Assembly (NCBI GenBank): GCA_027320425.1
Contig: DAHVLJ010000008.1
Span: 1-64,000, forward strand
Source of the DNA: Nitrososphaerota archaeon
Lineage (GTDB): Archaea; Thermoproteota; Nitrososphaeria; Nitrososphaerales; Gagatemarchaeaceae
Reading direction: 5' to 3'
Length of the DNA stretch: 64,000 bases
The position numbers and the translations under genes are program-made. The notes beneath the pieces are model-generated. The model was not told where the DNA came from. It saw nothing but the letters and a program-made list of their open reading frames with translations, and made no database searches. Shown here piece after piece: positions 1,366-61,653 of the stretch. Within the stretch, counting starts at the first letter, position 1. Each line of letters starts with the position of its first letter.

Positions 1366-3303
1366 ATGCTCACCCCAGTTCAGATGGATAGGGTAAGGAT
1401 AATCGCCCTCAGGGAGGACATTTCGCAGATCCTCCATTCTCTACACGAGGCAGGCGTCATGCAGCTTGAACAGGTGGAGAGGAGCCCGTCAGAAGGTTTC
1501 GGGGAACCCACCCCGCCCGAACTGCAGCGCAGGGTGGCGGACGAGGCGTTCAGGTTCGAAGGTCTCGTGGCCGCGCTCCCGCCCGTCACGGTCGATGGTC
1601 AGCGTCACTTCGAGGGCATAAACGACGTCCTCGCACAGGCAGAAGCGCTAACGATCGACGGCGAAGTCAAGGGTCTGAAGACCGAACTGGAGTCAGTCGA
1701 CGTCAGGCTCGCGAGAAACAAGGTCTTCCTGCAAACCCTGGGGAGGATCGCTTCCTTCAGGAAGGACCTTTCGATCTTGACGGCATCGAGCCTCGTCTCT
1801 GGATTCTACGCTATTCCGGAGGACGGGTTCTCCTCTTTCAAGGAAGAGATGCGCACCATCGCCGGCGACGCGATTGTCGAAAGCTATCACTCTGCGGAAG
1901 GGGACGTCACTGCGCTCGTGGCGATCCCGAAGTCGGCCGAAGAGCAGGCGAAACCCATCTTCGAGAAGTACAAGGCATTGAAGGCCGACCTGCCATACAA
2001 TCTGGGGACCCCTGCAGAGGCCAAGGCGAAGCTTGAGTCTGAGGACGCGGATCTGTCTCGGACGAAAGCCAAGGCGGAAGAGGGGCTCAGGGCGATATCG
2101 CGTGAGCACTACGGCGCAATCCTAGCGATAAGGGAAGCGCTCGCTATCGAGGGGCAGAGGCACGAGGCTATCGGTAAGTTGGCCCAGAGCGACAGGACGG
2201 TCCTCCTCGAGGGCTGGGTACCTCGCCCCAATGTCCCTGCATTGGAAAAGGAACTTTCAAGCGCAGCCGCTGGCAGGGTGGTCATCGTCGGAGTGAAGGG
2301 CGATTCCGAAGAAGCGCCTACCCTGATGCAGAACAGCAGCAGGATCAAGCCCTTCGAGTTCCTTGTCAGATTCTTCTCCCTCCCCAAGAGCGGTGAAATC
2401 GACCCTACCATGACCTTCTCCATAGTCTTCCCTATCTTCTTCGGGCTGATGGTCGGGGACGTAGGCTACGGCCTCGTCATCCTTCTGCTCGGGTTCTATT
2501 TCACGAGGATCGGGAGCGGCAAGACTAGCGCCAGGGCGCTCCCCCGGGCGATACGTTCCTTTGGTAGGGGGATGATGGGGAAAAGGACCCTGGGAACAAT
2601 AGGGACGATAATGATGATCGGAGGGGTCTCGGCGATGGTCTTCGGGGCCCTGTTCAACGAATACTTCGGAGCCGCGCTCCCATGGTACGGGGCTGCGCTG
2701 AACGTGGTCGGCCAGCTTCCTATCTTGCTGGTCATCACGATATTCATCGGACTGGGCCACATCACCCTCGGTTACATCTTCGGAATCTACCTTGGGGTCA
2801 AGACGGGGCACCTCAAGCATGCGATAGGGAAGATAGGCTGGCTTGGCTTCATGTGGAGCGGAACGGTGGGTCTGGTCGACTTCTTCGACAGGGGGCTCTT
2901 CCCGTCTCCCATCATTGCAGCATATGCGAGCATAGCGGCGCTCATAGGCTCGGCCGTCGTCGTCGCGGTCAGCGAGGGTCCAAGGTTCGCCATGGAGATT
3001 CCCACTCTCATGAGCCATGTCATGTCATATGCGAGGATTCTGGGGGTCCTTCTTGCTTCGGTCTTGCTCGCTTCGATCGTTGACACGAGCCTAGGGGCGA
3101 GCGTCGGCCGGGCGCCCATCACCGCGACGATCTTCGTCGCTGTCATAGCCATCATGGTCCACCTCCTGAACATCGTTCTTGGGATCTTCGAGCCGTCGAT
3201 CCAGGGGGTCAGGCTCCATTACGTCGAGTTCTACACCAAGTTCTTCGAGGGGAACGGCAAGCCGTTCTCTCCGTTCGCCGTGCGAAAGAAGTACACGAAG
3301 TAG
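1366..3303 (+). CDS. atpI: A/V-type ATP synthase subunit I
   Basis: 645 aa; soluble N-terminal half and multi-TM C-terminal half (FGLMVGDVGYGL, ARILGVLLASVLL). Confidence 0.93.
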   Translation: MLTPVQMDRVRIIALREDISQILHSLHEAGVMQLEQVERSPSEGFGEPTPPELQRRVADEAFRFEGLVAALPPVTVDGQRHFEGINDVLAQAEALTIDGEVKGLKTELESVDVRLARNKVFLQTLGRIASFRKDLSILTASSLVSGFYAIPEDGFSSFKEEMRTIAGDAIVESYHSAEGDVTALVAIPKSAEEQAKPIFEKYKALKADLPYNLGTPAEAKAKLESEDADLSRTKAKAEEGLRAISREHYGAILAIREALAIEGQRHEAIGKLAQSDRTVLLEGWVPRPNVPALEKELSSAAAGRVVIVGVKGDSEEAPTLMQNSSRIKPFEFLVRFFSLPKSGEIDPTMTFSIVFPIFFGLMVGDVGYGLVILLLGFYFTRIGSGKTSARALPRAIRSFGRGMMGKRTLGTIGTIMMIGGVSAMVFGALFNEYFGAALPWYGAALNVVGQLPILLVITIFIGLGHITLGYIFGIYLGVKTGHLKHAIGKIGWLGFMWSGTVGLVDFFDRGLFPSPIIAAYASIAALIGSAVVVAVSEGPRFAMEIPTLMSHVMSYARILGVLLASVLLASIVDTSLGASVGRAPITATIFVAVIAIMVHLLNIVLGIFEPSIQGVRLHYVEFYTKFFEGNGKPFSPFAVRKKYTK

Positions 3304-3391
3304 CTCCGTGGGCCGCCGGACGACCGACGGCAGAATTCATCCGAGTAACAGTTAAAAGTCCCTCAGAGTCGAGCCGCCTTCGAGTTCGCAA

Positions 3392-3634
3392 ATGGCTTTC
3401 ACAATGGACCTCCCCACGGCCTTGACATTCATCGCCGCTGCGATTGCGATGGCGGGCGGGCTCATCGCCACTGGCATTGCCCAGTCGGGCATCGGCGCGG
3501 CAGGCATGGGCGTAGTCGCCGAGAAGCCGGAGAGGACTGGGACCGTCCTCTTCTTCCTTGTGATCCCGGAGACGCTCTTCATATTCGGCTTCGTCGTAGC
3601 GCTGATTATGATGCTGCAGATACTCCATCCGTAG
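3392..3634 (+). CDS. atpK: A/V-type ATP synthase subunit K (proteolipid ring)
   Basis: 80 aa, two TM helices, Gly/Ala-rich, conserved-type glutamate in TM2 (VIPETLFIFGFVVALIM). Confidence 0.9.
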   Translation: MAFTMDLPTALTFIAAAIAMAGGLIATGIAQSGIGAAGMGVVAEKPERTGTVLFFLVIPETLFIFGFVVALIMMLQILHP

Positions 3635-3730
3635 CGGAACAACCTCTTCATCCGCCGGCTGAGTCCGACATTCAGATACGCTAGAATGGCGCGGCGACAT
3701 CTGTTGCCCGGGAGAGCCGGCGTTCCGGAG

Positions 3731-4612
3731 TCAGTACTGTCGAAGAATCGAGAAGTCCGATAGGTCAGACAGGAGCAGCGTAGCCTCGTTGCGGGGCAGG
3801 TTCATCAGCATGCGTTTCGCTTCTTCAGCATACGACTGCGCCTGAGCGGTCATCTTCCCGACGACTTCGCTCTCGCTATGGGTCTTCAGAAGGCCGACCG
3901 ACACCTTGTCCTTGGACCTCCAGTCGAGCAGATCGTCCTTCAGCTGATACGCGATCCCCATGCACCTGCCATATTCGGCGAGCGCCTTCACCTCCTTTTC
4001 GGTGCCGCCCCCGATCATCGCTCCCAGTTTCGCAGATGTCTCAAAGAGCGAGGCGGTCTTTTCACTCACGATCCTGAGATACTCGTCCCAGGTCAGCTTG
4101 TAGATTTCGGGGTCTATTGTGAGCTCTGAGTATTCCCCCTCGGACATCTGCATCGCAGCGTTGCTGATTTCCTCAGAGATCCTCTTGTCGTCGTACCTTG
4201 CGGCGATCGCCAGGATCATGGCGAAGACGAAATCCGCGCTGAGAAGCGAAGCGCTGTACCCGTACTTCAGGTGGAACGGGACCCTCCCCCTTCTTAGTTT
4301 CTCTCCGTCGATGACGTCGTCATGTATTATAGATTCGGTGTGAAGCAACTCCACTGCGACTGCCGCTCCAAGGACCGAGTCGTCCTTGCTTCCGACGGCT
4401 TCCGCGGAGGCCATCAGCATCACAGGGCGGACCCGCTTTCCCCCTTCCGTCATGTACACCAACGGGTCGTGGAACCTAGAGTGGTTGTACAGCTTGAGTT
4501 CGCGCGAAAGGGCGGCGTCAACTCTCTTGGAGTAGGACTTCATCCTTTCCTCTAGCGCCTCCAGCGTCATCGCCCTGTCTTCCGCCAACCTCTCCCCCTC
4601 CTCCTGAACCAA
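3731..4612 (-). CDS. Polyprenyl (geranylgeranyl) diphosphate synthase
   Basis: Asp-rich motifs HDDVID and YQLKDDLLD; GGKRVRP motif. Confidence 0.92.
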   Translation of the reverse strand: MVQEEGERLAEDRAMTLEALEERMKSYSKRVDAALSRELKLYNHSRFHDPLVYMTEGGKRVRPVMLMASAEAVGSKDDSVLGAAVAVELLHTESIIHDDVIDGEKLRRGRVPFHLKYGYSASLLSADFVFAMILAIAARYDDKRISEEISNAAMQMSEGEYSELTIDPEIYKLTWDEYLRIVSEKTASLFETSAKLGAMIGGGTEKEVKALAEYGRCMGIAYQLKDDLLDWRSKDKVSVGLLKTHSESEVVGKMTAQAQSYAEEAKRMLMNLPRNEATLLLSDLSDFSILRQY

Positions 4613-4658
4613 GTTTCTCTGGTTCTTATTTAATGAGTTCTCCTAAACGCTGAGGCAT

Positions 4659-5360
4659 ATGCTCGCTTTCAGGGTGCATCGGCTAGAACTCGCGGGCAGG
4701 CACCGGATACTGATGCCAAAGCTCAACAAGGGGCAGATGTCGCTCCTTGCAAGGCGCTTCGATTCCGAGGGGTTCAGGGTGGAATCGGGCCCGGTGTTGA
4801 GTGCGAGGAAGGCTTCGCACGCGATCTACGTCGACCCTGCCGGTCTGTGCTGGGGGTCGCCAGACCCTTCCGACTATCTGCTGCCCTCCATCCCTGAAGT
4901 CCTCAGCTGCGAGAAGGAGAAGGCCTCACTGGACGAGCTCCTGTCGAAGTACTTCGTTTTTTCATACTGGAGGGCAGAGCATGCTGTCAGAGTCTGCTCC
5001 CGCCTGGAGTCTCTAGGAACGTGGGACGCTTTGAGAGCATCTGGCGGCTGTGGGCTAGCTCCTGACGAACGTCTAATGGCCACGGCTCTCCTTCAAGGGT
5101 CTGCGGGGCAATGCAGGCTCGTTACCGACTTCGTCGCCGACGAGTCAAGCGCACTGCTGGTGGGAAGGCGGACGTACTATGACTCGAGGTTGCCTGTTAG
5201 AGAGGCGTCTGAGACGCTCCGAGAAATGGACGGGGTCGGATCAAGGAACGCATACATCCCTCGAAACGGAGTGCTCTCCATGACCGACGCATGTCGTAAG
5301 GAGACCCTTGCGAAAGCTTCCGAGGCCCTGGGAGAATGGTGCTCCTTTGAGACTTCGTAG
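4659..5360 (+). CDS. Hypothetical protein, 233 aa
   Basis: Long ORF divergent from the polyprenyl synthase; no recognisable domain. Confidence 0.7.
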   Translation: MLAFRVHRLELAGRHRILMPKLNKGQMSLLARRFDSEGFRVESGPVLSARKASHAIYVDPAGLCWGSPDPSDYLLPSIPEVLSCEKEKASLDELLSKYFVFSYWRAEHAVRVCSRLESLGTWDALRASGGCGLAPDERLMATALLQGSAGQCRLVTDFVADESSALLVGRRTYYDSRLPVREASETLREMDGVGSRNAYIPRNGVLSMTDACRKETLAKASEALGEWCSFETS

Positions 5361-5399
5361 CGGGAAAGCTCTAATGGGCGACCGGACTGGCCCTGCTCA

Positions 5400-5493
5400 G
5401 CCCCGGTAGTATAGGGCCCATGAGGGCGTATAGCCCGGTCAAGTATGCTGGCCTTTCGAGTCGGCGACCCGGGTTCGAATCCCGGCCGGGGCA
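5400..5493 (+). tRNA. tRNA-Glu(UUC), interrupted by a 19-nt D-arm intron (5415..5433)
   Basis: Acceptor GCCCCGG/CCGGGGC + A73; T arm CCGGG-TTCGAAT-CCCGG; anticodon arm CTGGC-CTTTCGA-GTCGG (anticodon TTC). Removing GGCCCATGAGGGCGTATAG restores a 75-nt cloverleaf. Confidence 0.9.
5476..5493 (+). repeat. att-like direct repeat, copy 1 (3' end of tRNA-Glu)
   Basis: Exact 18-mer cgaatcccggccggggca. Confidence 0.75.
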
Positions 5494-5589
5494 ATCTTGC
5501 ACATATGCAGCAGCTCAGGTCGTAGCCAGGGACCTCTTCCGCCTCCGAGTAGCAGGGTTGGGGAGAGTATCTGTGGCTGGCAGCCGATC

Positions 5590-6036
5590 TCAATTGGTCA
5601 CGTCAGCAGTGACAGTGGGTGAGAGGGCTGTCTTCCCATCCAACCCGAACAAAGTCAGCGTGACCTCGAAGCTGTTGCCACTGGCAGGATGTCCAATGAT
5701 GTAACACACAGATGGTCCCCGATAGCCCACGGTGCAACTGGCCGTGGCAAGAGAATTCTGCACCCCGCCCACCATGGTCACATTCTGCCCTGTGGTTGCA
5801 TTGCGGAGCCATGCAACCGCAACGACTGTTATATTGGAGCCGAGGTGATCAACCAACGTTGCGTTGATGCAGAACGACTGGATAGAGCAGCCCTTTGGGG
5901 GTTCGAGGAATGTCACCGGATACTGGGCGTTGGTCGTAGTGACCGTACGTTCATTGGTGGTACCAATCAGATATCCTCCCCCAACGCTGACCAAGACGAT
6001 GAAGGCAAGAATGAAGGCTACCGCTTCTCGCTTCAC
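5590..6036 (-). CDS. Secreted/membrane-anchored hypothetical protein, GTG start
   Basis: N-terminal signal/TM (MKREAVAFILAFIVLVSVGGGYLIG) then an extracytoplasmic domain with three Cys. Confidence 0.7.
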   Translation of the reverse strand: MKREAVAFILAFIVLVSVGGGYLIGTTNERTVTTTNAQYPVTFLEPPKGCSIQSFCINATLVDHLGSNITVVAVAWLRNATTGQNVTMVGGVQNSLATASCTVGYRGPSVCYIIGHPASGNSFEVTLTLFGLDGKTALSPTVTADVTN

Positions 6037-6137
6037 ACTTCTCCTTGGTCCCTGAGGTTGAATTTACGTCTACAGGTTAGAACAATTCAGCGGCTTGGGT
6101 GTGCCCCAGCATCCTTGTGGATGCAAGCCTCCACACC

Positions 6138-6257
6138 TCACTTCGTGCTGGCCTTCGCCAGTCTAGGAAGCTCCGCCGCGGTCGCCAGCGTCGCATCCTC
6201 GGTCATGGCCGCGATAAGGTCGAGCTCGGCCTTCTTTCGCTTCGGGAGTTCCTTCAA
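6138..6257 (-). CDS. 39-aa hypothetical ORF, TTGA overlap with the preceding ORF (or C-terminal half after a frameshift)
   Basis: Read directly: (M)KELPKRKKAELDLIAAMTEDATLATAAELPRLAKASTK*. Confidence 0.35.
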   Translation of the reverse strand: MKELPKRKKAELDLIAAMTEDATLATAAELPRLAKASTK

Positions 6258-6433
6258 CCGGATCCTCTTCTCAATCTCTCTTCAGCCCGTTTATACCTTT
6301 CCGTGAGTTCTCGGTAAAGATAGGACGCCTCCATCGAACTGCTGAACAGGATTTGGATGACGTTCCCTACCCTCACGAGTCTGATCGAGGTCGTGCCGAT
6401 GTCGAACTGGCTTGCCTCGACATCCTCAGTCAA
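6254..6433 (-). CDS. 59-aa hypothetical protein, TTG start (possibly the N-terminal half of a frameshifted gene)
   Basis: Read directly: (M)TEDVEASQFDIGTTSIRLVRVGNVIQILFSSSMEASYLYRELTERYKRAEERLRRGSG*; TATA-like TTAAAT about 24 nt upstream on the minus strand. Confidence 0.45.
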   Translation of the reverse strand: MTEDVEASQFDIGTTSIRLVRVGNVIQILFSSSMEASYLYRELTERYKRAEERLRRGSG

Positions 6434-6505
6434 TACTCAACCAGGCAGTTGGCCAATTTAACCCCCCAATACGCCAGAAAGTACCTGAGCACCCATATGG
6501 GTGCA

Positions 6506-6523
6506 CGAATCCCGGCCGGGGCA
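6506..6523 (+). repeat. att-like direct repeat, copy 2 (isolated tRNA-Glu 3' end fragment)
   Basis: Exact 18-mer cgaatcccggccggggca with no tRNA body upstream; followed by tatctt, compared with atctt after copy 1. Confidence 0.75.
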
Positions 6524-6628
6524 TATCTTTCGAGAAGAGGCAGTGGTATCGATTTGTGGTCTCTGTTCCGGCGGAGCGACCTCCTGGTTGAGTTTAAAGG
6601 TAGGGCAGCTTTGACAAGCTCGGCTCCT

Positions 6629-7003
6629 GTGGACCTCGGTCGCTTCTCAGTCTGCTTGGCGGTCAAGAACCTGGAAGCATCGAAGGCCTTCTATGAAAAA
6701 CTCGGATTCACCGCCTCTTCCCCTGACCCCTCTCACAAGAACTGGCTGGTCATGAAAAGCGGCGACACCGAGATAGGGATCTTCGAAGGGATTTTTGACA
6801 AAAACACCCTCTGTTTCAACCCCGGCGGGGCCTTGGGAAAGCCCACGGCTGTTTTCACCGACGTACGTGAGATACACCGACAGCTGAAGGCGAAGGGAGT
6901 GGTCACAAAGGGAGAAGGCGGCTTGGATTCAAAGAGCGGTCCCGGTGGGTTCGTAGTTACCGACCCCGATGGCAACGACATCCTGTTCGATCAGCACGTA
7001 TAG
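6629..7003 (+). CDS. VOC/glyoxalase family protein
   Basis: FSVCLAVKNLEASKAFYEKLGFTASSPDPSHKNWLVMKSGDTEIGIFEG...GGFVVTDPDGNDILFDQHV; GTG start with TATA-like gtttaaa about 32 nt upstream. Confidence 0.85.
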   Translation: MDLGRFSVCLAVKNLEASKAFYEKLGFTASSPDPSHKNWLVMKSGDTEIGIFEGIFDKNTLCFNPGGALGKPTAVFTDVREIHRQLKAKGVVTKGEGGLDSKSGPGGFVVTDPDGNDILFDQHV

Positions 7004-19098: not shown

Positions 19099-21135
19099 CT
19101 ACTCGGCCTGGACTTGCCTGCGGATGGTTTCGACGATGTCGGGGTTCGCAAGCGTGGTGACGTCCCCGTAATCCGTCCTGTCGGATATAGAAGCCAGGAG
19201 CCGCCTCATGATCTTCCCTGACCTGGTCTTCGGTAGGTCTGGGACGATATGGACGAGCCTAGGCCTCGCCACGGGGCCGAGCTCTTTGACGACGTTCTCC
19301 TTTATCCTCTCTTCCAGTTCCTTTGAAGATGAGGTGCCAGGCTTTAGGGCCACGTAGATCACCGGGACGTGCCCTCTGAGCTCGTCCGCCATCGCTATGG
19401 CCGCTGCCTCAGCGACCTCCGGCGTCGCGAGCACGGCGTTCTCAAGTTCTTTCGTCCCCAGTCTATGCCCAGCGACCTTGATCACGTCGTCTATCCTTCC
19501 AAGGATTCTGAAGTAGCCGTCTGCCGCAAGGACGGCCCCGTCCCCGGCAAAATACGGCCAGTCGTGCCAGTCTTTGCTCTCCTTGTTCCTGTTGTACTTC
19601 GAGTAGTATGTCCTTACGAACCTGTCGGGGTCGCCCCAGATGGTCTGCATGATCCCTGGCCAGGGGTTCCTGATGCAGATGTTTCCCGCCCTGTTCTGCC
19701 CGGCCGGAACCTCGACCCCGTCTTCATCGTAGATTATCGGATAGATGCCCGGCATTCCAGGGCCGGCGCTCCCCGCTTTCATCGGCGAGAGCGCGGGGAT
19801 GGTGCTGCACATGAACCCCCCTGTCTCGGTCTGCCACCAAGTGTCGGTGATCACCGCCTGCTTCTTCCCGACGGTTTCGTAGAACCACCTCCACGCCTCT
19901 GGTTCTATGGGTTCGCCTACCGTCGTCATCGCCTTGAATCGGAACGTGTATTTTGAAGGTTCATCCGGTCCAGCCTTCCTCAACATCCGGATTGTCGTTG
20001 GTGCCGTGTGGAAGATGTTGACCCCCAACCTTTCGGCGATTCTCCATGGTCTCCCTGCGTCAGGATAGAGCGGGACCCCTTCATACATGACCGAGGTAGC
20101 CGCCAGGGCGAGGGGGCCATAGACTATGTATGAGTGTCCGGTGATCCACCCGATGTCAGCGAAGCACCAGTAGACGTCCTCCGGATGGATGTCCTGGACG
20201 TACTTGGACGTGCCAGCGACATAGGCGAGGTATCCTCCGGTCCTGTGCTGGACTCCCTTGGGCATCCCCGTGGACCCGCTCGTATACATCAGGAAAAGGG
20301 GAGCTTCGGCGTCCATAGATACCGGACCGATCGTCTTCCCAGAGAACGGCTTCATCGCTTCGTCCACGAAGTAATCCCGTCCCTTGACCATGGGCGCTTC
20401 GGAAACATACTGGCCGGGAAAGCGCCTCCAGACTAGGACCTTCTCGACCTTGGTGCCGAGCCTTTCAGCTTCCGTTACCGTGACATCGGCTTCTTTCTTC
20501 TTGTCGATGAGCTTCCCATTCCTGTAGTATCCGTCAATGGTGACGAGGACGGTGCTCTTCGAGTCCTCCATGCGCTCAGCACAAGCTTTCGCGCTGAACC
20601 CGCCAAACACCTGATTGTGTATTATCCCGAGCCTAGCAGCTGCGAGCATCGAGACCGGGAGCTCGGGGATCATGGGCAGATGGAACGTGACCCTGTCCCC
20701 CGCATGCAGCCTGGCGAACTCCGAAAGAAGCAGGGCGAACTCGTTCACACGGTCGTACAGCTGTCTGTAGGTGATGATTCGGGTAGGCTCGTCTTCAGGT
20801 TCAGGGACCCAGATCAGTGCCGCCTTGCTCCCATGGCTAGTCAGATGCCGGTCTACGCAGTTGTATGACGCGTTGAGCTTCCCCCCGACGAACCATTTCC
20901 AAAACGGGGGGTTTCCCGCGTCTAGGATGGTGTGCCACTTACTGTCCCAAGTCAGAAGATCAGCATACTCTTCGAAGCACTTTGGAAAGTTCTTCTCGGA
21001 GAACCGCTCAAAGACTGACGGGTCACTCATGTTTGCCTGTGATACGAAGCTACCGGGGGGCTCAGTGAGGGGCTCTTCTCTCCAATGGACGCCAATCTGA
21101 GACTCTGAGGTTCCGGCTTTCGCTTCTGTGGGCAT
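19099..21135 (-). CDS. acs: Acetyl-CoA synthetase (AMP-forming)
   Basis: 678 aa; LFLMYTSGSTGMPKGVQHRTGGY; DTWWQTETGGFM; KTRSGKIMRRLL. Confidence 0.95.
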   Translation of the reverse strand: MPTEAKAGTSESQIGVHWREEPLTEPPGSFVSQANMSDPSVFERFSEKNFPKCFEEYADLLTWDSKWHTILDAGNPPFWKWFVGGKLNASYNCVDRHLTSHGSKAALIWVPEPEDEPTRIITYRQLYDRVNEFALLLSEFARLHAGDRVTFHLPMIPELPVSMLAAARLGIIHNQVFGGFSAKACAERMEDSKSTVLVTIDGYYRNGKLIDKKKEADVTVTEAERLGTKVEKVLVWRRFPGQYVSEAPMVKGRDYFVDEAMKPFSGKTIGPVSMDAEAPLFLMYTSGSTGMPKGVQHRTGGYLAYVAGTSKYVQDIHPEDVYWCFADIGWITGHSYIVYGPLALAATSVMYEGVPLYPDAGRPWRIAERLGVNIFHTAPTTIRMLRKAGPDEPSKYTFRFKAMTTVGEPIEPEAWRWFYETVGKKQAVITDTWWQTETGGFMCSTIPALSPMKAGSAGPGMPGIYPIIYDEDGVEVPAGQNRAGNICIRNPWPGIMQTIWGDPDRFVRTYYSKYNRNKESKDWHDWPYFAGDGAVLAADGYFRILGRIDDVIKVAGHRLGTKELENAVLATPEVAEAAAIAMADELRGHVPVIYVALKPGTSSSKELEERIKENVVKELGPVARPRLVHIVPDLPKTRSGKIMRRLLASISDRTDYGDVTTLANPDIVETIRRQVQAE

Positions 21136-21597
21136 CCGTCAGGCCAAACAATCTCCTATTCATTTAAGACTGGCTGCCCACGCAAACTACTTAGTCAACA
21201 TGCGAAGTGGCTGGGTAGGTTCCAGACAATCATCGGCATCATAGCGCTCGTCATCGGCATCTTGGGACTAGTCTAGACTGCACTTGAGGAGCTCTAGGAT
21301 GGAGGCCCTCGAACCCTTCTTTGTGAGGGTCGGATCGGCCTTGCCGTAAAGAGAGGTTCATCTGCTCGGTCGCCGGGAGTTCATTCCGCGATTCCTTTTA
21401 CGCCAGGCCAGGAACATGCAGAACAGGAGTTTCCACGAGGGAGGACGCTTTCTCCTCATATGCGTGTGTCCTCTTTGTCTCTCAGGGGCTCTCTCGGTCT
21501 GCCTCGCACGCGCACACATGGGCATGACAGGCAGGAATGCACGTCCTATCACACAGAAACCGAATCGAGAGCAAGGGCGAAGAGGAGAGAGTATTGG

Positions 21598-21713
21598 TGC
21601 GGGGGGTGGGATTCGAACCCACGAACCCCTAAGGGACGGGATGTCTCAGGTTTCTCTTAAGTCCCGCGCTTCCAACGCCGCCTGCGATTTTGACCAGGCT
21701 CAGCAACCCCCGC
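21598..21713 (-). tRNA. tRNA-Leu(UAA) with two introns (21670..21687 and 21643..21655)
   Basis: Acceptor GCGGGGG/CCCCCGC + A73; T arm GTGGG-TTCGAAT-CCCAC; anticodon arm CGGGA-CTTAAGA-TCCCG after splicing; type II variable arm. Both insertions fold as BHB motifs. Confidence 0.88.
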
Positions 21714-21763
21714 GAACCACGAACTCAGAGAGGAGTCTAAAGACCTTGTCTATCGCGAGTTGA

Positions 21764-22537
21764 TCATATGTTTTCCAGTAACTTTACCCAAGTTTCGAAC
21801 CTTGCCTGGTGTGAGTCGCAGATTGAGCCTATCTCCATCATCCATCTCAAGACATTCTCACGTCCACCCAAGTATGCTGTATGGAGTGGAGCACGGTTGT
21901 GACCGCCATGGTGGACATACGAATAACTACGAAACTCGAAACCAAGCTGTCTTGCTAAGATGACAAACCCATCACGAAGTCGGGCGCTTGCTACTTCGAA
22001 TCTGCACTGTCCGACTCTGCCGCTATGATGAAAGCATCCATCTGCACTGAAAAGTCCCTTTAGGTAAGATCGCTTGACTTCAAGATTGGCAGTGAGGATT
22101 GCGAGAGGTATTCCAACGGTCCTAGACTTCGGACCTTTCGGGAGGCCGTACCGGAGGAAGAACTCGATCGCTTGACTTTTTGCCGAACAGACCACAGTCG
22201 TATTCTCCTTCTTGTTCAGAACCGCGGGTTCGAGGCCCAATACCTCTTTGGTGACCTCAACGGTTCGGGCAATCATATCATGGTCGCTCGAGTGGAGAGA
22301 AATGCCCCATGCCTCGCCAAGCCAACCGTCTCCCGTGTGAAGTCCGAGAAGCAGGCCGACACTCTCACACATCTCAGCCAGTGGTTCGCGGTAGATCGGG
22401 TGACTGTGCCTCATCCGAACATTCATCGCATGCAAACCAAGACGGAGTGTTTCCCGAGGAATACCTGTTCTTAGTTGCATCTCTCGCAAGCTTAATCCTG
22501 ATTCGTACAATCCGAGGATATTCAGGTTGGACAACAT
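21764..22537 (-). CDS. LAGLIDADG-like homing endonuclease, free-standing, with HTH-like N-terminus
   Basis: VGLLLGLHTGDGWLG and SYLKGLFSADGCFHH match the two LAGLIDADG-type helices; N-terminal LSLREMQLRTGIPRETLRLGL. Confidence 0.78.
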   Translation of the reverse strand: MLSNLNILGLYESGLSLREMQLRTGIPRETLRLGLHAMNVRMRHSHPIYREPLAEMCESVGLLLGLHTGDGWLGEAWGISLHSSDHDMIARTVEVTKEVLGLEPAVLNKKENTTVVCSAKSQAIEFFLRYGLPKGPKSRTVGIPLAILTANLEVKRSYLKGLFSADGCFHHSGRVGQCRFEVASARLRDGFVILARQLGFEFRSYSYVHHGGHNRAPLHTAYLGGRENVLRWMMEIGSICDSHQARFETWVKLLENI

Positions 22538-22642
22538 TAGCCCAAATCTTGACCACGTTAACCTACAAAAGTTCGACTAATGTTTCCAACTTCTCGCGGA
22601 GGAGGGCTAGTGAAAGTACTTGACTATCAACCAGGCTTGAGT

Positions 22643-55189: not shown

Positions 55190-55639
55190 ATGATTGGCAG
55201 GGGTAAGGAAGTCCGCCACAGAAGGGTGTTCTCTGAAAACGAAGCGTCATATCTCGCGGAGAGCTTCCTTGGACGGCTCGCCACCGCTTCTCCTGAAGGA
55301 GAGCCACACGTCGTCCCGGTTAGCTACCGTTTCGATGGGAGGACCATCACTTTCGGGGGGTGGAACCTCACTTCCAGCCTGAAGTACAGGCATCTGACGG
55401 CGAACGACAGAGTGGCCTTCGTCGTCGACGACGTGCTTTCCGTTGACCCCTGGCGCGTCAGGGGAGTGGAGGTAAGGGGAAGGGCGGAGCCAATGACCGT
55501 CGACGGTGTGAGCATGGTTAGGATAATCCCGCTCGAAGTTAGAAGCTTCAGTGGAATAATCACCCCTACAGGCGAGCTGGTGTTCGCTGACAACTGGGAC
55601 GAAGCCGGATCTGGGTCACAGAACGAGGAAATGACGTAG
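55190..55639 (+). CDS. PPOX-class F420-dependent oxidoreductase-like protein
   Basis: FLGRLATASPEGEPHVVPVSYRFDGRTITFGGWNLTSSLKYRHLTANDRVAFVVDD. Confidence 0.88.
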   Translation: MIGRGKEVRHRRVFSENEASYLAESFLGRLATASPEGEPHVVPVSYRFDGRTITFGGWNLTSSLKYRHLTANDRVAFVVDDVLSVDPWRVRGVEVRGRAEPMTVDGVSMVRIIPLEVRSFSGIITPTGELVFADNWDEAGSGSQNEEMT

Positions 55640-55643
55640 CAGT

Positions 55644-55668
55644 CCCTAGAAACAGTACTGTTTTAGGG
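55644..55668. repeat. Near-perfect inverted repeat/hairpin (terminator or operator candidate)
   Basis: ccctagaaacag-ta-ctgttttagggg; 11 of 12 positions pair if G-U is allowed. Confidence 0.5.
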
Positions 55669-55881
55669 GTCCCAACACTTGACACTCTCACTTCTCACGT
55701 TTCGGTGACGGACGCCACAGGAGAATATGTTGAACAACTCTCACCCCGTAGTAAACGAACCCAGCCTTCACTAAGCTTATACGGCGGGGCTCGAAGACCT
55801 GCCCGAGTGGTATGTAAGTAGTCGACCGCACCGACCCAGCATCCTTATGAAGAGTCGGGGCAACCCTCGTGAGACGACAAA

Positions 55882-56148
55882 ATGTCTTATGACGAGGTCC
55901 TGATAGACCCCGATGTCTTAGAGGAGTCCAAAGTCCACTCGACTATCATCAAAAGGGTCGTCGAAAAATGGAAGTCCAATTCCTCAAAAGCGAAGAAACG
56001 GGGTGAGAACGACAAATGGGTGGATACAGAGGAGTGGGAAGGAACGCGGTACGTAATCACCTTCCGGAACGAGTCAGACCTATGCGTCGTGACTGGTTTC
56101 AGGATAGCAATGCATTCCAAAGTTCATTGGGACACGAAGAAGAAATAG
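55882..56148 (+). CDS. 88-aa hypothetical protein (possible partner of the next gene)
   Basis: Complete ORF, one base before the next GTG start. Confidence 0.65.
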   Translation: MSYDEVLIDPDVLEESKVHSTIIKRVVEKWKSNSSKAKKRGENDKWVDTEEWEGTRYVITFRNESDLCVVTGFRIAMHSKVHWDTKKK

Positions 56149-56149
56149 A

Positions 56150-56818
56150 GTGAAAATAGAAATGAGTCAAGGAGCGTGGAAGGAGACGAGGACTGGAGTG
56201 GCTACGGTGAGTTGGGACAACAAAACAATCCATCTAGATGTGCCTGCAATCAAGAATACAAAGACAGGGAAGATACGAGTCAGACTCGAAGACGTCGCTC
56301 GGGTTGAACTAGAAACACTCGCAAGAGAGGCTGGAATTGAGCCTCGGGATTTCCCCATTCTGCTAGTGCTCAAGGCTCAGATGGGAGGGTTCCACAACAA
56401 GGAAGAAGTCCAATTTCAGTATCACCTAAATAAGATGCTCTTCTATCAATGGAAGGAAATGGAGAAGCTTGGCCTAGGGGAGAGCTTCCCCCACGACGAG
56501 TTCAAGAAAGCAGATAGGGGCCCTGTGCCAGCGAACATAGAAAGTGACTTGGCAAGGCTATCTGGGCTCGGCCTGATATCAGTCGAGCGCCATCGCTGGG
56601 GTGAAAGGCCTCGCGATGAGTCGAAACAAATCAAGTTGACAACAAAAGGATCGGAGTTGGCGAATAAGTTTCTCAGAAGAACCCCTGAAGACCTCATGGC
56701 AACGACGGCCGAGGTAAAGGCGATGATTGGCACATTACCTCCCCCTTCGGTAAAAGAGAAGGTGCACAGGGAATACCCCGAATTCCGGACTACCTACAAG
56801 GTCGAAGATTCCGATTAG
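56150..56818 (+). CDS. Hypothetical protein with possible Panacea/SocA-like C-terminal region
   Basis: YHLNKMLFYQWKEMEKLGLGESFPHDEFKKADRGPVPANIESDLARLSGLGLI resembles the Panacea KxLxY...GPVP pattern. By-eye only. Confidence 0.6.
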   Translation: MKIEMSQGAWKETRTGVATVSWDNKTIHLDVPAIKNTKTGKIRVRLEDVARVELETLAREAGIEPRDFPILLVLKAQMGGFHNKEEVQFQYHLNKMLFYQWKEMEKLGLGESFPHDEFKKADRGPVPANIESDLARLSGLGLISVERHRWGERPRDESKQIKLTTKGSELANKFLRRTPEDLMATTAEVKAMIGTLPPPSVKEKVHREYPEFRTTYKVEDSD

Positions 56819-57106
56819 CCACTCAGCTCCCCTTTTTCAGCAAGTCTGCCGTGTAAAGACCTTGCAGAATCGCGTCTAGGAACAGTCTTCTGGCTAGGAA
56901 GGCAACCAGACCTTCTTAACAAGGCCGACCTAGATGCAACAGGAATTCATTCGCTACCCCAATTTCTCTTAGAAGTACTTGCTAGCGCCAGAGGAAGGAC
57001 AAAGGACGTTTGACGGGCTGACCGAAGGCCAAAAGTCCCTTGTGGCAGTGATAAAATGAATTGCCTGGAAACACTTAATGCCTTTGGAGAATGAAACCTT
57101 GGTCAG

Positions 57107-60100
57107 TTGTCAGACGAGTACGGTGACCAACCGCCTAGCGCTACCGAGTCTCTCGCTGATGAGAAAGTCGCTATCAAAGATAAACTCGAAGCGAGTCAAT
57201 CCGAAGCTAACAAGCATGCCGCTGATACAAAAATGGAGATTGACAATGTTTCAGCGCAATTAGCGGCAGATGGTCAGACTATCAAGGAATATCACGCCCA
57301 AATCTCGCGTGAGACGGCAGCTGGTCTCGCTAACCTCCGGATTCGGATTAGGAGTACCCTGTACAAGTCAACTTATTCACTTAGAGTATACATGTTAATC
57401 CAGATATCCCTACTGGTACTTGTCGGGCTGCTTGGTAGCTATTTCACCTATCCTATTAACTTCGGTCTATTCTGTGGTTTTGTTGCTGCCTGGGGCATAA
57501 TCAGTACGGTTACAGTTGCCGAGGTCCGAGGTCAGCTTAGGAGCATATCACGCAATTCATCGAGTGCAGAATCCGATATAGACGGATTCAACGAGAGGCT
57601 CGTAACCACCTCATCGAAGTTTCCAACCCCAAGGAATGACACAACGGTCGTAGGAAGATTGTTCGCCACGCTCCAGGCAGACCTGGGCCAGATCGCTACT
57701 AACGCCAGTTCATTCTTCCCCTTCATGTCGAAGTTCGAAAGGGCGCTTGAAGTGGACCAATTCATGGATAGGTTTTCTTTTGCATTGAAGAGATACGACT
57801 TCGATTCCTATTCACTCGACGCCAAGCGAGCCTTCCTGGGCCGAGTCAAACTCACCACCAATAAAACGGCATGGCTTGGTGGACTCTCAGAAGCTGCTTC
57901 ATCAATCTACGGAGAAATCCCCAGCGTCTTGTTCCGACTGATGTATTACGAGACTTGGGATAGAGAGAACATCAAGGCGACGTGGGCGGAAGTCAAGGGA
58001 GATTCAAAGGAGGACTCTGGCGTTAGAGATGCCTTTGCGATGCTGCTTATATCCAAAAACTTGGTGGATAGCCAGGGACTGGACGAGGGGGCACGCGCCA
58101 CTCTCTCCGATATTCTATTCGGCATGGAAGACTACACCCTGCTAGATTTCAAAACTAGGGCAACGGAATTCTACCACAACCTCCGCTTGTTAAAGGAGGA
58201 ATGTCTCAAGGTATTGGACTCATATGACCTAAGCATTGCAATCAATAGGGAATCGATTACTGGACTTTCACCACCTTCTTCCGATCCGACGGAGTGGCAA
58301 GAAGGTGTCATAAAATACATTGCAGATCAGGTTCACCAGAAGATTCGCGGAGAGAACCTGGTGGACTTATCGACCAAGACAGGTGGTGGTGAGTTGCCGT
58401 CTACGGCTGCCGTAGAGACACTAATTCTGGTAGAGGGCGTGGGCGATGTGACGCGCGAACAGATCTGGAAGTCGATATTCAATTCAGAGACCTCGAATGT
58501 CCAAATCAGGTATCTGGCGAGCCTCATTGCCAAGAAGCGAGTATTTCGCCTCCACAAGGAGTTTTCGAGAGAGGCATTCATTGAGCATTTGACACTTGTA
58601 CTAAGGTCATCCCCTGACGATTTCCGTTTAGGAAGAGTCGAAGAAGGCGTCGAGAGCCTTGAACAGGAAATCTTGCGTGTGAAGCGTGGCGTTGCGAGGA
58701 CAAATGAGCGTATGCGCTTCGGGTTGAGTGATGTTTCCTTTGTGGATTCCTTCGTTCCAAAGAAGATATCAGAAGTTGAGGAAGAAGTAGTTCGAGAATT
58801 CGCCAAAGTGGCCAGAGACGTAAACCCTGATGTCACTAGATTGCTCTACTTCTACGTGATAGGTTCCGACAAAGGTCTGGAGTCTTTTTCCGCGATGGTA
58901 AATTCCAAGAACTTGGGGCCCCTGGCGGATTTTCTCGTGGTCAAAGGGTTCGTACCCAAACGGCGATTCAACGAGTATCTTGTGCTCCTACTTGCCCAGT
59001 TGCCAAGCTTCGATCTGGCCTCATTCAGCGATTCGTACAATATCTACGAAAAGCTGTTCAGTAAGATTTCTACATTTCACGCTTTTCTTGAACGTCATCA
59101 GATAGCAGTAGATGCGAATCTCCCATCGTTCAGCAATATCTTAAGCGACTCCGGACCAAAGAGGGGGCTAGACTTTCCACTGTTGTTCTTTGAGGTAGGT
59201 CTCACTATGGTCAGTAAGAAACTTGACCAGATTACTTTGTCCGACGAACAGCATTCTGAGTTGGCCAAGGCTGCATCAGCACTCTCTTTGAGTCTTGAAA
59301 ATGACCGAGCCTCGGAGAAGCTGGCTGAGGACCTCTTTTGGGAGCTATTTGGTGCCAAGGTTCTGTTCAATTACAGCAAACTCTATGTAGCAAATATCTC
59401 AAGGGACAAAGCGACCCTGAAAGAAGCGGCCCTCGAAACAGTCGCAAACCCAAACCCTGACCCGAGCTTTCCATTTTACCGGGAAAAGCTCCATTCCGGA
59501 ATCGTTGTGTTGGGTGAGGACACACTCCTGGCGATGAGACGAACGGAATTCGAGTCGATTTTGAAGAGAGACGAGAAGCTAGGTCTGCAAAATGAGGTAC
59601 TCCAGAACTACGCGGAATCCATCAAGGAATTCATGAGCAAAATTGATGTAAATGTAGCGAGAGAGTTCCTTTCCGCTGGCGTACTCACCGCATACATTCT
59701 GACGATCCCCCACAGTACTGCCCTCATCGAGTTCATGCGGACGCAGGAGAACGCCATTGAAGCTGCTGAGGAAGATCTAGCCGGAATAGACTCTGGGTAC
59801 CTTAGGCTAAGGCAGTTCGAAAGTGGCAGTGGAGCTGGGACGAGGATTGGTCTTGTTCCTTATGGGATGACATTCGAGGACTTTGCGGCCATGTTCGAAG
59901 ACTTGTTCGTGCGGGCGAAGCAGATAACTAAAACGACGAAGCCATTGAATTTCTACATAACTCGTGTCTTTCCATCTAATGATGCGCTTCGGGAAGTAAT
60001 GCAGGGTGGTTCCAAAGCGAACCCGCTCGAGGTGATAAGGGACTTGGTACGGAGGTATATTGTTGGCTCCGATGCCCTCTCGGTTCTCTCACTGCTAGAG

Positions 60101-60481
60101 CCGTCCGAAAACAGTCCTACGGCCTTCAATACTGTAATCTCTGGTCTTATCAACAACAAATCCAATAACCTCTTTACATTGACTAGTGATTTGATTTCGG
60201 ACATCCTAGAGAAGGACAGCGCCATGAGGACCAAGTTTGAGAGCGGTATGGTAGACGAGTCGCTTCGGGCTGCTTATGGTTCCCAAAGCCTCACTGAGCT
60301 TTGCAAGAAGGTCGAAACTCTTACCAGAGTTTCGACGGTCGATTTGGTCAAGCAAGAATTCATAGACCGATTGTATAGCATAATTCCCGACATAGGGGAC
60401 CTACCACAGGAGTCTGGAACCCGGTTGACTGATGCCCTTTTCAAGAGAATCTACGTGGTCGGAACGGTTCTCAATTCCTGA
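57107..60481 (+). CDS. 1124-aa hypothetical coiled-coil/two-TM protein, TTG start
   Basis: Single uninterrupted ORF; N-terminal charged coiled coil, TM hairpin (LIQISLLVLVGLLGSYFTYPINFGLFCGFVAAWGIISTV), about 950-aa helical C-terminal region; TATA-like acttaatg about 30 nt upstream of the TTG. Confidence 0.85.
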   Translation: MSDEYGDQPPSATESLADEKVAIKDKLEASQSEANKHAADTKMEIDNVSAQLAADGQTIKEYHAQISRETAAGLANLRIRIRSTLYKSTYSLRVYMLIQISLLVLVGLLGSYFTYPINFGLFCGFVAAWGIISTVTVAEVRGQLRSISRNSSSAESDIDGFNERLVTTSSKFPTPRNDTTVVGRLFATLQADLGQIATNASSFFPFMSKFERALEVDQFMDRFSFALKRYDFDSYSLDAKRAFLGRVKLTTNKTAWLGGLSEAASSIYGEIPSVLFRLMYYETWDRENIKATWAEVKGDSKEDSGVRDAFAMLLISKNLVDSQGLDEGARATLSDILFGMEDYTLLDFKTRATEFYHNLRLLKEECLKVLDSYDLSIAINRESITGLSPPSSDPTEWQEGVIKYIADQVHQKIRGENLVDLSTKTGGGELPSTAAVETLILVEGVGDVTREQIWKSIFNSETSNVQIRYLASLIAKKRVFRLHKEFSREAFIEHLTLVLRSSPDDFRLGRVEEGVESLEQEILRVKRGVARTNERMRFGLSDVSFVDSFVPKKISEVEEEVVREFAKVARDVNPDVTRLLYFYVIGSDKGLESFSAMVNSKNLGPLADFLVVKGFVPKRRFNEYLVLLLAQLPSFDLASFSDSYNIYEKLFSKISTFHAFLERHQIAVDANLPSFSNILSDSGPKRGLDFPLLFFEVGLTMVSKKLDQITLSDEQHSELAKAASALSLSLENDRASEKLAEDLFWELFGAKVLFNYSKLYVANISRDKATLKEAALETVANPNPDPSFPFYREKLHSGIVVLGEDTLLAMRRTEFESILKRDEKLGLQNEVLQNYAESIKEFMSKIDVNVAREFLSAGVLTAYILTIPHSTALIEFMRTQENAIEAAEEDLAGIDSGYLRLRQFESGSGAGTRIGLVPYGMTFEDFAAMFEDLFVRAKQITKTTKPLNFYITRVFPSNDALREVMQGGSKANPLEVIRDLVRRYIVGSDALSVLSLLEPSENSPTAFNTVISGLINNKSNNLFTLTSDLISDILEKDSAMRTKFESGMVDESLRAAYGSQSLTELCKKVETLTRVSTVDLVKQEFIDRLYSIIPDIGDLPQESGTRLTDALFKRIYVVGTVLNS

Positions 60482-60693
60482 TCCTCTAGCGAGAGGGGTA
60501 GTTGGGTTGTGGCCGAAGGAGAAGATTTCGCAGTCAAGCATCCAGGACTAGTGAGATCCCCCAACAACTGGGTGTAAGAGAAGCGGGGAAAGTTGTAAAA
60601 GTCAGAGCCTGCTAAAGTCAGGGTGTGCAATAAACTGACTAGGTTTGCGGTATTCCCGCTCAACATAAGGAGCTGGGGGCTGGGGAGCTGACC

Positions 60694-61653
60694 ATGGCGC
60701 TTTCAGGATTCGAGGGTCAAGTAACAGCAGCAGTCGAGAAGCTCGGCGAGAGCATCGTCAGCGTGAGCAGCATGAGGCTCGAGAGACGATTCTTCGGCAT
60801 CGTCCCGCTGGAGGGCCAGGGTTCGGGAATCATCCTCGACAGGGACGGGCTAGTAGTCACCAACAACCATGTCATCGACGGCGCGAACCAGGTCCACGTG
60901 AGCCTCAAGGATGGCAGGACGTTCACCGGCGAAGTGGTGGGTTCGGATGAAGCAACCGACGTGGCAGTGATTCGAGTCAACGCTTCTGACCTCCCTGCAG
61001 CAGAGCTCGGCGACTCCGAGGCCGTCAGGGTGGGCCAGTTCGTGCTCGCCATAGGCAACGCGCTCGCGCTTCCAGGGGGTCCCACCGTGTCTATGGGGGT
61101 GTTGAGCGCCAAAGGAAGGCCCCTTCCGGGTTCGGACTTCATTTTCGAAGGACTGCTGCAGACCGACGCCGCAGTGAACCCAGGCAACAGCGGAGGGCCG
61201 TTGGCAGACCTTGACGGCAAAATCATAGGGATCACCACCCTGATGATACCCTACGCGCAGGGGATGGGGTTCGCGATACCGATCAACACTGTGAAGAGGA
61301 TCGCCCAGGAGATACTCCAGAACGGGAGGGTGAGCCGAAGATGGATCGGGATCTCGGGAATCGACGTCACCCCACAGCTCGCCCGAAGGTACAGCCTGCA
61401 GACCGACACAGGTTTCCTTGTGGCAGAAGTGGTCCCCCGAAGCCCGGCCGAGTTCGCAGGGCTGCGCAACGGGGACGTCGTCGTGGGGGCTGACGGGGCT
61501 GGGGTGAAGCACACCAAAGACCTGCTCATGGCCATTTCGAAGGCGGAGTCGGGAGGGAAGGTGAGATTGGAGATCAACCGGGCAGGAAGGAAGGGCGAGC
61601 TTGACGTCAGCCCGGCCGAGGCGCCCCCCATCCAGACCTACGACGGGAGATAA
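60694..61653 (+). CDS. HtrA/DegP-like S1C serine protease with PDZ domain
   Basis: GQGSGIILDRDGLVVTNNHVID; ATDVAVIRV; QTDAAVNPGNSGGPLADLDGKIIGI; C-terminal PDZ. Confidence 0.94.
   Translation: MALSGFEGQVTAAVEKLGESIVSVSSMRLERRFFGIVPLEGQGSGIILDRDGLVVTNNHVIDGANQVHVSLKDGRTFTGEVVGSDEATDVAVIRVNASDLPAAELGDSEAVRVGQFVLAIGNALALPGGPTVSMGVLSAKGRPLPGSDFIFEGLLQTDAAVNPGNSGGPLADLDGKIIGITTLMIPYAQGMGFAIPINTVKRIAQEILQNGRVSRRWIGISGIDVTPQLARRYSLQTDTGFLVAEVVPRSPAEFAGLRNGDVVVGADGAGVKHTKDLLMAISKAESGGKVRLEINRAGRKGELDVSPAEAPPIQTYDGR

Follow-up and report, generated by a model that had tools for sequence, protein, structure and literature searches.

The window, the whole 64,000-nucleotide stretch analyzed here, derives from an incomplete MAG (53%) of a Nitrososphaerota archaeon. 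Between a PPOX-family gene (positions 55190–55639, plus strand; Pfam PNPOx_N, 5.8e-13) and an htrA-type protease gene (60694–61653, plus strand; Trypsin_2, 1.3e-33, and PDZ) it holds three contiguous, low-GC ORFs, all on the plus strand. The first, of 88 aa (55882–56148), encodes a putative toxin, and the second, of 222 aa (56150–56818), begins 1 base past its stop codon and encodes a putative antitoxin. A plus-strand spacer (56819–57106) separates the two from an ORF of 1124 aa (57107–60481) with a TTG start. The initial annotation had described this block as a lower-GC accessory island of differing codon use, containing these three ORFs and no housekeeping families. Composition agrees with that description, as the GC content of the island is 0.491 (55,548–60,650) as compared to 0.589 elsewhere in the window, with other 5.1-kb stretches ahead of it ranging over 0.563–0.610 (sd 0.010), and by codon usage all three rank near the atypical extreme of the ∼50 ORFs in the window. 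A second lower-GC stretch (0.53–0.54) lies at 21000–22540 and includes an atypical 257-aa ORF on the minus strand (21764–22537).

The ORF coordinates agree as well, and none of the three proteins reaches a cut-off in Pfam or NCBIfam, and PADLOC and PHROGs likewise gave nothing significant; the sole PADLOC match among them is Specificity_I to the 222-aa protein (E 0.019). Weak matches of the island proteins to cytolethal distending toxin, Cohesin_HEAT, and other families were dropped as chance level. The decayed coding DNA that had been reported in the block was not borne out, as searches of the spacers at 55640–55881 and 56819–57106 for gene remnants returned no match. No integrase was recognizable among the island ORFs or spacer peptides. 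Promoter and terminator scans gave results at or below chance, the models being of sigma-70 type, which do not cover archaeal promoters.

Insertion at the 3′ end of the PPOX gene

The block is a foreign insert of ∼5.1 kb in the 3′ end of the PPOX gene, placed at a short att-like repeat. The island is bordered by an imperfect direct repeat of ∼24 bp with the core CCCGCTC, of which the left copy occupies 55522–55547 (core, 55528–55534) and the right copy 60649–60674 (core, 60655–60661). Foreign sequence and then a new PPOX stop codon follow the left copy, such that the residues of the PPOX ORF past approximately codon 115 (the last ∼35 codons) are inserted DNA. The right copy leads into the displaced native PPOX 3′ end (60655–60691, plus strand; ending PLNIRSWGLGS and stop), identified by alignment with empty sites, and then into htrA. 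The borders, previously placed at 55640 and 60690, are thus corrected to ∼55,534, within the PPOX ORF, on the left and to ∼60,655 on the right.

An exact empty site is present in eight genus genomes, where the PPOX 3′ end continues directly to htrA and the homology of the left flank overlaps that of the right by 22 to 24 bp. In 15 further genus genomes the block is absent and the flanking genes lie 48 to 223 bp apart, making 23 other genomes of the genus in which these genes stand together without the island. The htrA-type gene is kept in 30 of 31 genus genomes, and the two larger island genes were not found in any other genus genome searched outside this species. One match, L003 (26%, E 6.7e-4), falls within what seems to be a citrate-synthase-like gene of no relation and was attributed to chance. 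The island is carried only by this species, represented by two MAGs. A core-genome block is ruled out by the empty sites, and these together with the restriction to one species bear out the accessory character proposed in the initial annotation, which had overlooked that the insertion is of the site-specific type. A tRNA-targeted insertion was rejected, the sole tRNA of the window being at 5.4 kb. That tRNA-Pro (CGG) is followed by two ORFs of atypical codon usage (5689–6306 and 6353–7003), and the region (5400–7003) is possibly a tRNA-associated insertion.

An assembly or binning artefact, to which the origin of the sequence in a MAG and the abrupt break in composition might point, is extremely improbable. 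In a sister MAG (G019), a 256-kb contig carries an 11.5-kb segment 99.99% identical to that of the window, both junctions included; the att-like junctions fall within a host gene; and the relatives of the large protein belong to the same order. This order is that of ammonia-oxidising archaea, because three genomes within it (G226, G466, and G391) encode archaeal AmoA; AmoA was not found in the incomplete genome of the window. The island is genuine, precisely bounded, and acquired in an ordinary way, and comprises a toxin-antitoxin (TA)-like module and an unstudied cargo protein.

The coupled 88-aa and 222-aa genes

Members of the 222-aa family were found in two IMG/VR contigs (L048, 46%; L050, 35%), in the Asgard archaeon Candidatus Borrarchaeum (L052, 44%), and in L053 (36%). 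A homologue of the first gene, 87 to 107 aa in length, precedes the 222-aa homologue in the window, L048, L050, and L052, the two genes being separated by 1, 4, or 37 nt or overlapping by 11 nt, in keeping with the initial reading of a coupling between a small protein and a Panacea-like partner; no 88-aa partner was detected in L053. The latter locus also encodes a 1114-aa protein (2605–5949) resembling, by eye, the archaeal PolD large subunit, and its “bacterium” label may be wrong. In L050, integrase, ParB, and RusA genes are followed by the pair and then by genes for the large terminase, portal, head protease, and major head protein, while in L048 the pair precedes genes with head, connector, and tail matches. 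The Borrarchaeum pair lies downstream of a serine recombinase and a VRR-NUC nuclease, and no structural gene was recognized among the flanking genes tested. Occurrence in two head-tailed virus contigs and beside a recombinase in Borrarchaeum therefore identifies the pair as a conserved, coupled, mobile virus-borne module, a link to viruses that had gone unseen in the initial annotation.

The predicted structure of the 222-aa protein (pLDDT 82) combines a beta-rich N terminus with a winged helix and resembles PadR/MarR folds; its best matches in a viral structure library are uncharacterized proteins of SSV4 and SEV1. The initial annotation had suggested a possible Panacea-like region in this ORF. 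In Pfam the window protein is without a match to SocA_Panacea (PF13274), and the L052 homologue is below the cut-off (0.048, 15.0 bits; cut-off 25.7). The suggestion is upheld in part by indirect profile links, as the profile of the 222-aa family finds L056 (3e-4; hhalign, 95%), which itself matches SocA_Panacea at 0.0024, and by a motif at residues 124 to 126 that reads GPV in the window, L052, and L053, GPI in L048, and GPR in L050. GPV is a Panacea signature, and a double substitution within it abolishes neutralization (PMC8832971). By its model and these sequence comparisons, the 222-aa protein appears to be a winged-helix protein distantly, and indirectly, linked to Panacea. Panacea proper was found in none of 46 genomes of the host family. 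Elsewhere in the order, G391 encodes a distant Panacea/DarG-like protein beside a 90-aa ORF and a TIR-type protein that matches PADLOC PDC-S35 at 2e-76 (L055, 1462–3417), a possible defense cluster.

The 88-aa model (pLDDT 75) has a beta-alpha-alpha-beta-beta-beta order, and its top PDB match in a fold search is Escherichia coli RelE (probability 0.85; E 0.065, not significant), with an archaeal RelE at rank 14. This RelE-like topology is not matched at the profile level: Pfam gave no RelE/ParE match, and hhalign of the 88-aa profile against 24 archaeal ParE/RelE sequences was null (probability 1%). Because no Pfam match reached its cut-off and the RelE profile comparison was null, the 88-aa and 222-aa proteins are assigned to neither the RelE nor the Panacea family.

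We predict, at slightly better than even confidence, that the pair works most likely like a type II TA module. The 88-aa protein would be a RelE-like toxin, which the Panacea-like winged-helix protein would bind and neutralize, perhaps sensing a trigger, and such a module would give the element stability or keep out competing viruses. The main rival, which we consider possible and rather unlikely, is a viral regulatory switch in which the 222-aa protein binds DNA ahead of late genes and the 88-aa protein is a small basic co-regulator. A conserved viral position fits this alternative, the pair being directly upstream of packaging and head genes in L050 and L048, as does the resemblance of the winged helix to PadR/MarR regulators. 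However, the Borrarchaeum pair stands by a recombinase and a nuclease rather than by recognized structural genes, the pair persists in the window in the absence of viral genes, and the Panacea links and GPV motif suggest antitoxins. On the TA reading, the small virus-borne pair is directly testable for toxin-antitoxin activity, which, if present, would carry Panacea-type modules into tailed-virus and Asgard settings.

The 1124-aa membrane protein and its relatives

The 1124-aa protein was initially called a membrane coiled-coil protein. Two TM segments are present, hydrophobic stretches at approximately residues 90 to 115 and 117 to 140, but the N-terminal coiled coil was not confirmed by a crude heptad scan, and the N-terminal segment is polar and probably helical. 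The protein has no Walker A motif and no solved relative. Outside this species, 400 genomes of the order yielded relatives only in G226 and G466, both ammonia-oxidising archaea, and no relatives were found in IMG/VR, phages, or plasmids. The G226 relative is full-length (1137 aa) with the same two TM segments and the G466 form has 652 aa; they are 80% identical to one another and 22% identical to the window protein.

Both relatives are encoded near a CedD/VirB4/HerA-like ATPase, for which the best models are of CedD/VirB4/TrwB type. The G226 gene sits in a clear integrase/Cdc6 element, with a tyrosine integrase, Cdc6, the ATPase, a HicAB-like pair, a type IIG-like enzyme, and a UvrD-like helicase, and the G466 locus has the ATPase, AbiE, type IIG, and UvrD. 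The defense- or TA-type associations suspected in the initial annotation thus hold for the relatives of the large gene. Matches to the ATPase occur in 12 of 400 genomes of the order, and the eight other loci inspected have sm67/sm103 small proteins, mostly an integrase and Cdc6, variable neighbors, and no large gene. Because of these eight loci, the large gene is regarded as optional cargo. Across Nitrososphaerales (L059 and L078–L085), the ATPase and sm67/sm103 form a recurrent core, in most cases joined by a tyrosine integrase and by Cdc6; its changing neighbors include a TIR protein (L079) and, by eye, AbiE-like or methyltransferase-like genes.

The large protein is best read as defense or transfer cargo, and would be an independent membrane-anchored cargo gene product. 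Gene context makes a defense role more likely than DNA transfer. It is unlikely that the protein is instead part of a Ced/conjugation-like archaeal DNA-transfer apparatus with the HerA/VirB4-like ATPase, a role with which the CedD/VirB4/TrwB-type fit of that neighbor, the two TM segments, and, in G226, a small hydrophobic protein of 143 aa encoded between the ATPase and the large gene are consistent. The ATPase occurs without the large gene in the eight other loci, no such ATPase was detected in the window species (the MAGs being incomplete), and the neighbors are chiefly restriction and TA genes, each of which argues against transfer.

The three genes had been proposed as one undescribed system. 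That they form a single antiviral system, in which the pair controls the large membrane effector, is very unlikely: the genes share a strand, low GC content, and a contiguous position inside one insertion, but a 288-bp gap separates the pair from the large gene and the modules are separate everywhere else they were found. The pair occurs without the large gene in the two virus contigs and Borrarchaeum, the large gene without the pair in the two ammonia oxidizers, and both together only in this island. This separate occurrence leaves the idea of one three-gene system without support. As a whole, the locus is best explained, somewhat more probably than not, as an insert with a virus-borne TA-like pair and an independent membrane cargo gene. 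A fuller reading, which we regard as doubtful, holds jointly that the 1124-aa proteins are an undescribed family, membrane-anchored and antiviral or abortive in action, which Nitrososphaerales mobile elements spread as cargo, and that the 88-aa and 222-aa proteins are a new TA branch of the Panacea superfamily that viruses have carried through both Thaumarchaeota and Asgard archaea.

Comparison with known systems

The locus is an insertion with clean borders, from a little-known archaeal lineage, and its target site can be looked for as further genomes become available. It also directs attention to thaumarchaeal elements that have an integrase-Cdc6-ATPase core in common and exchange their defense cargo, one such cargo being an unstudied large membrane protein. 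Thaumarchaeal integrated elements have att sites mostly under 26 bp and insert in the 3′ part of protein genes, replacing the stop codon (PMC6563490). The island resembles the cryptic members of this group in its small size, short att-like repeat, 3′ insertion in a protein gene, and replaced gene end; an empty site and an att-like direct repeat are present, but no integrase gene, their defining feature, is recognizable, and the island therefore stands apart from them. Because it holds no recognizable integrase, we infer a degenerate or trans-mobilized element, the integrase of which may have been lost or may act in trans. Among the integrase/Cdc6/HerA-like-ATPase elements that ammonia-oxidising archaea carry (L059 and related loci), L059 has the only full-length relative found for the large protein, but the island has none of the core genes of these elements.

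Likeness of the 88-aa protein to RelE/ParE (e.g., E. coli RelE, 4fxe) extends to size, strand and helix order in the model, and the top PDB fold match, in contrast to a lack of sequence-profile similarity and a fold match short of significance. The pair resembles the PanA-PanT modules of Panacea (DUF4065, PF13274) in its coupled two-gene layout, GPV motif, viral and archaeal occurrence, and succession of a helix, small strands, and C-terminal helices. It differs from them in a 222-aa sequence under the Pfam cut-off, a full winged helix, a beta-rich N-terminal part, a partner that is a putative toxin, and a gene order in which the putative toxin gene comes first, the rarer order (PMC8832971).
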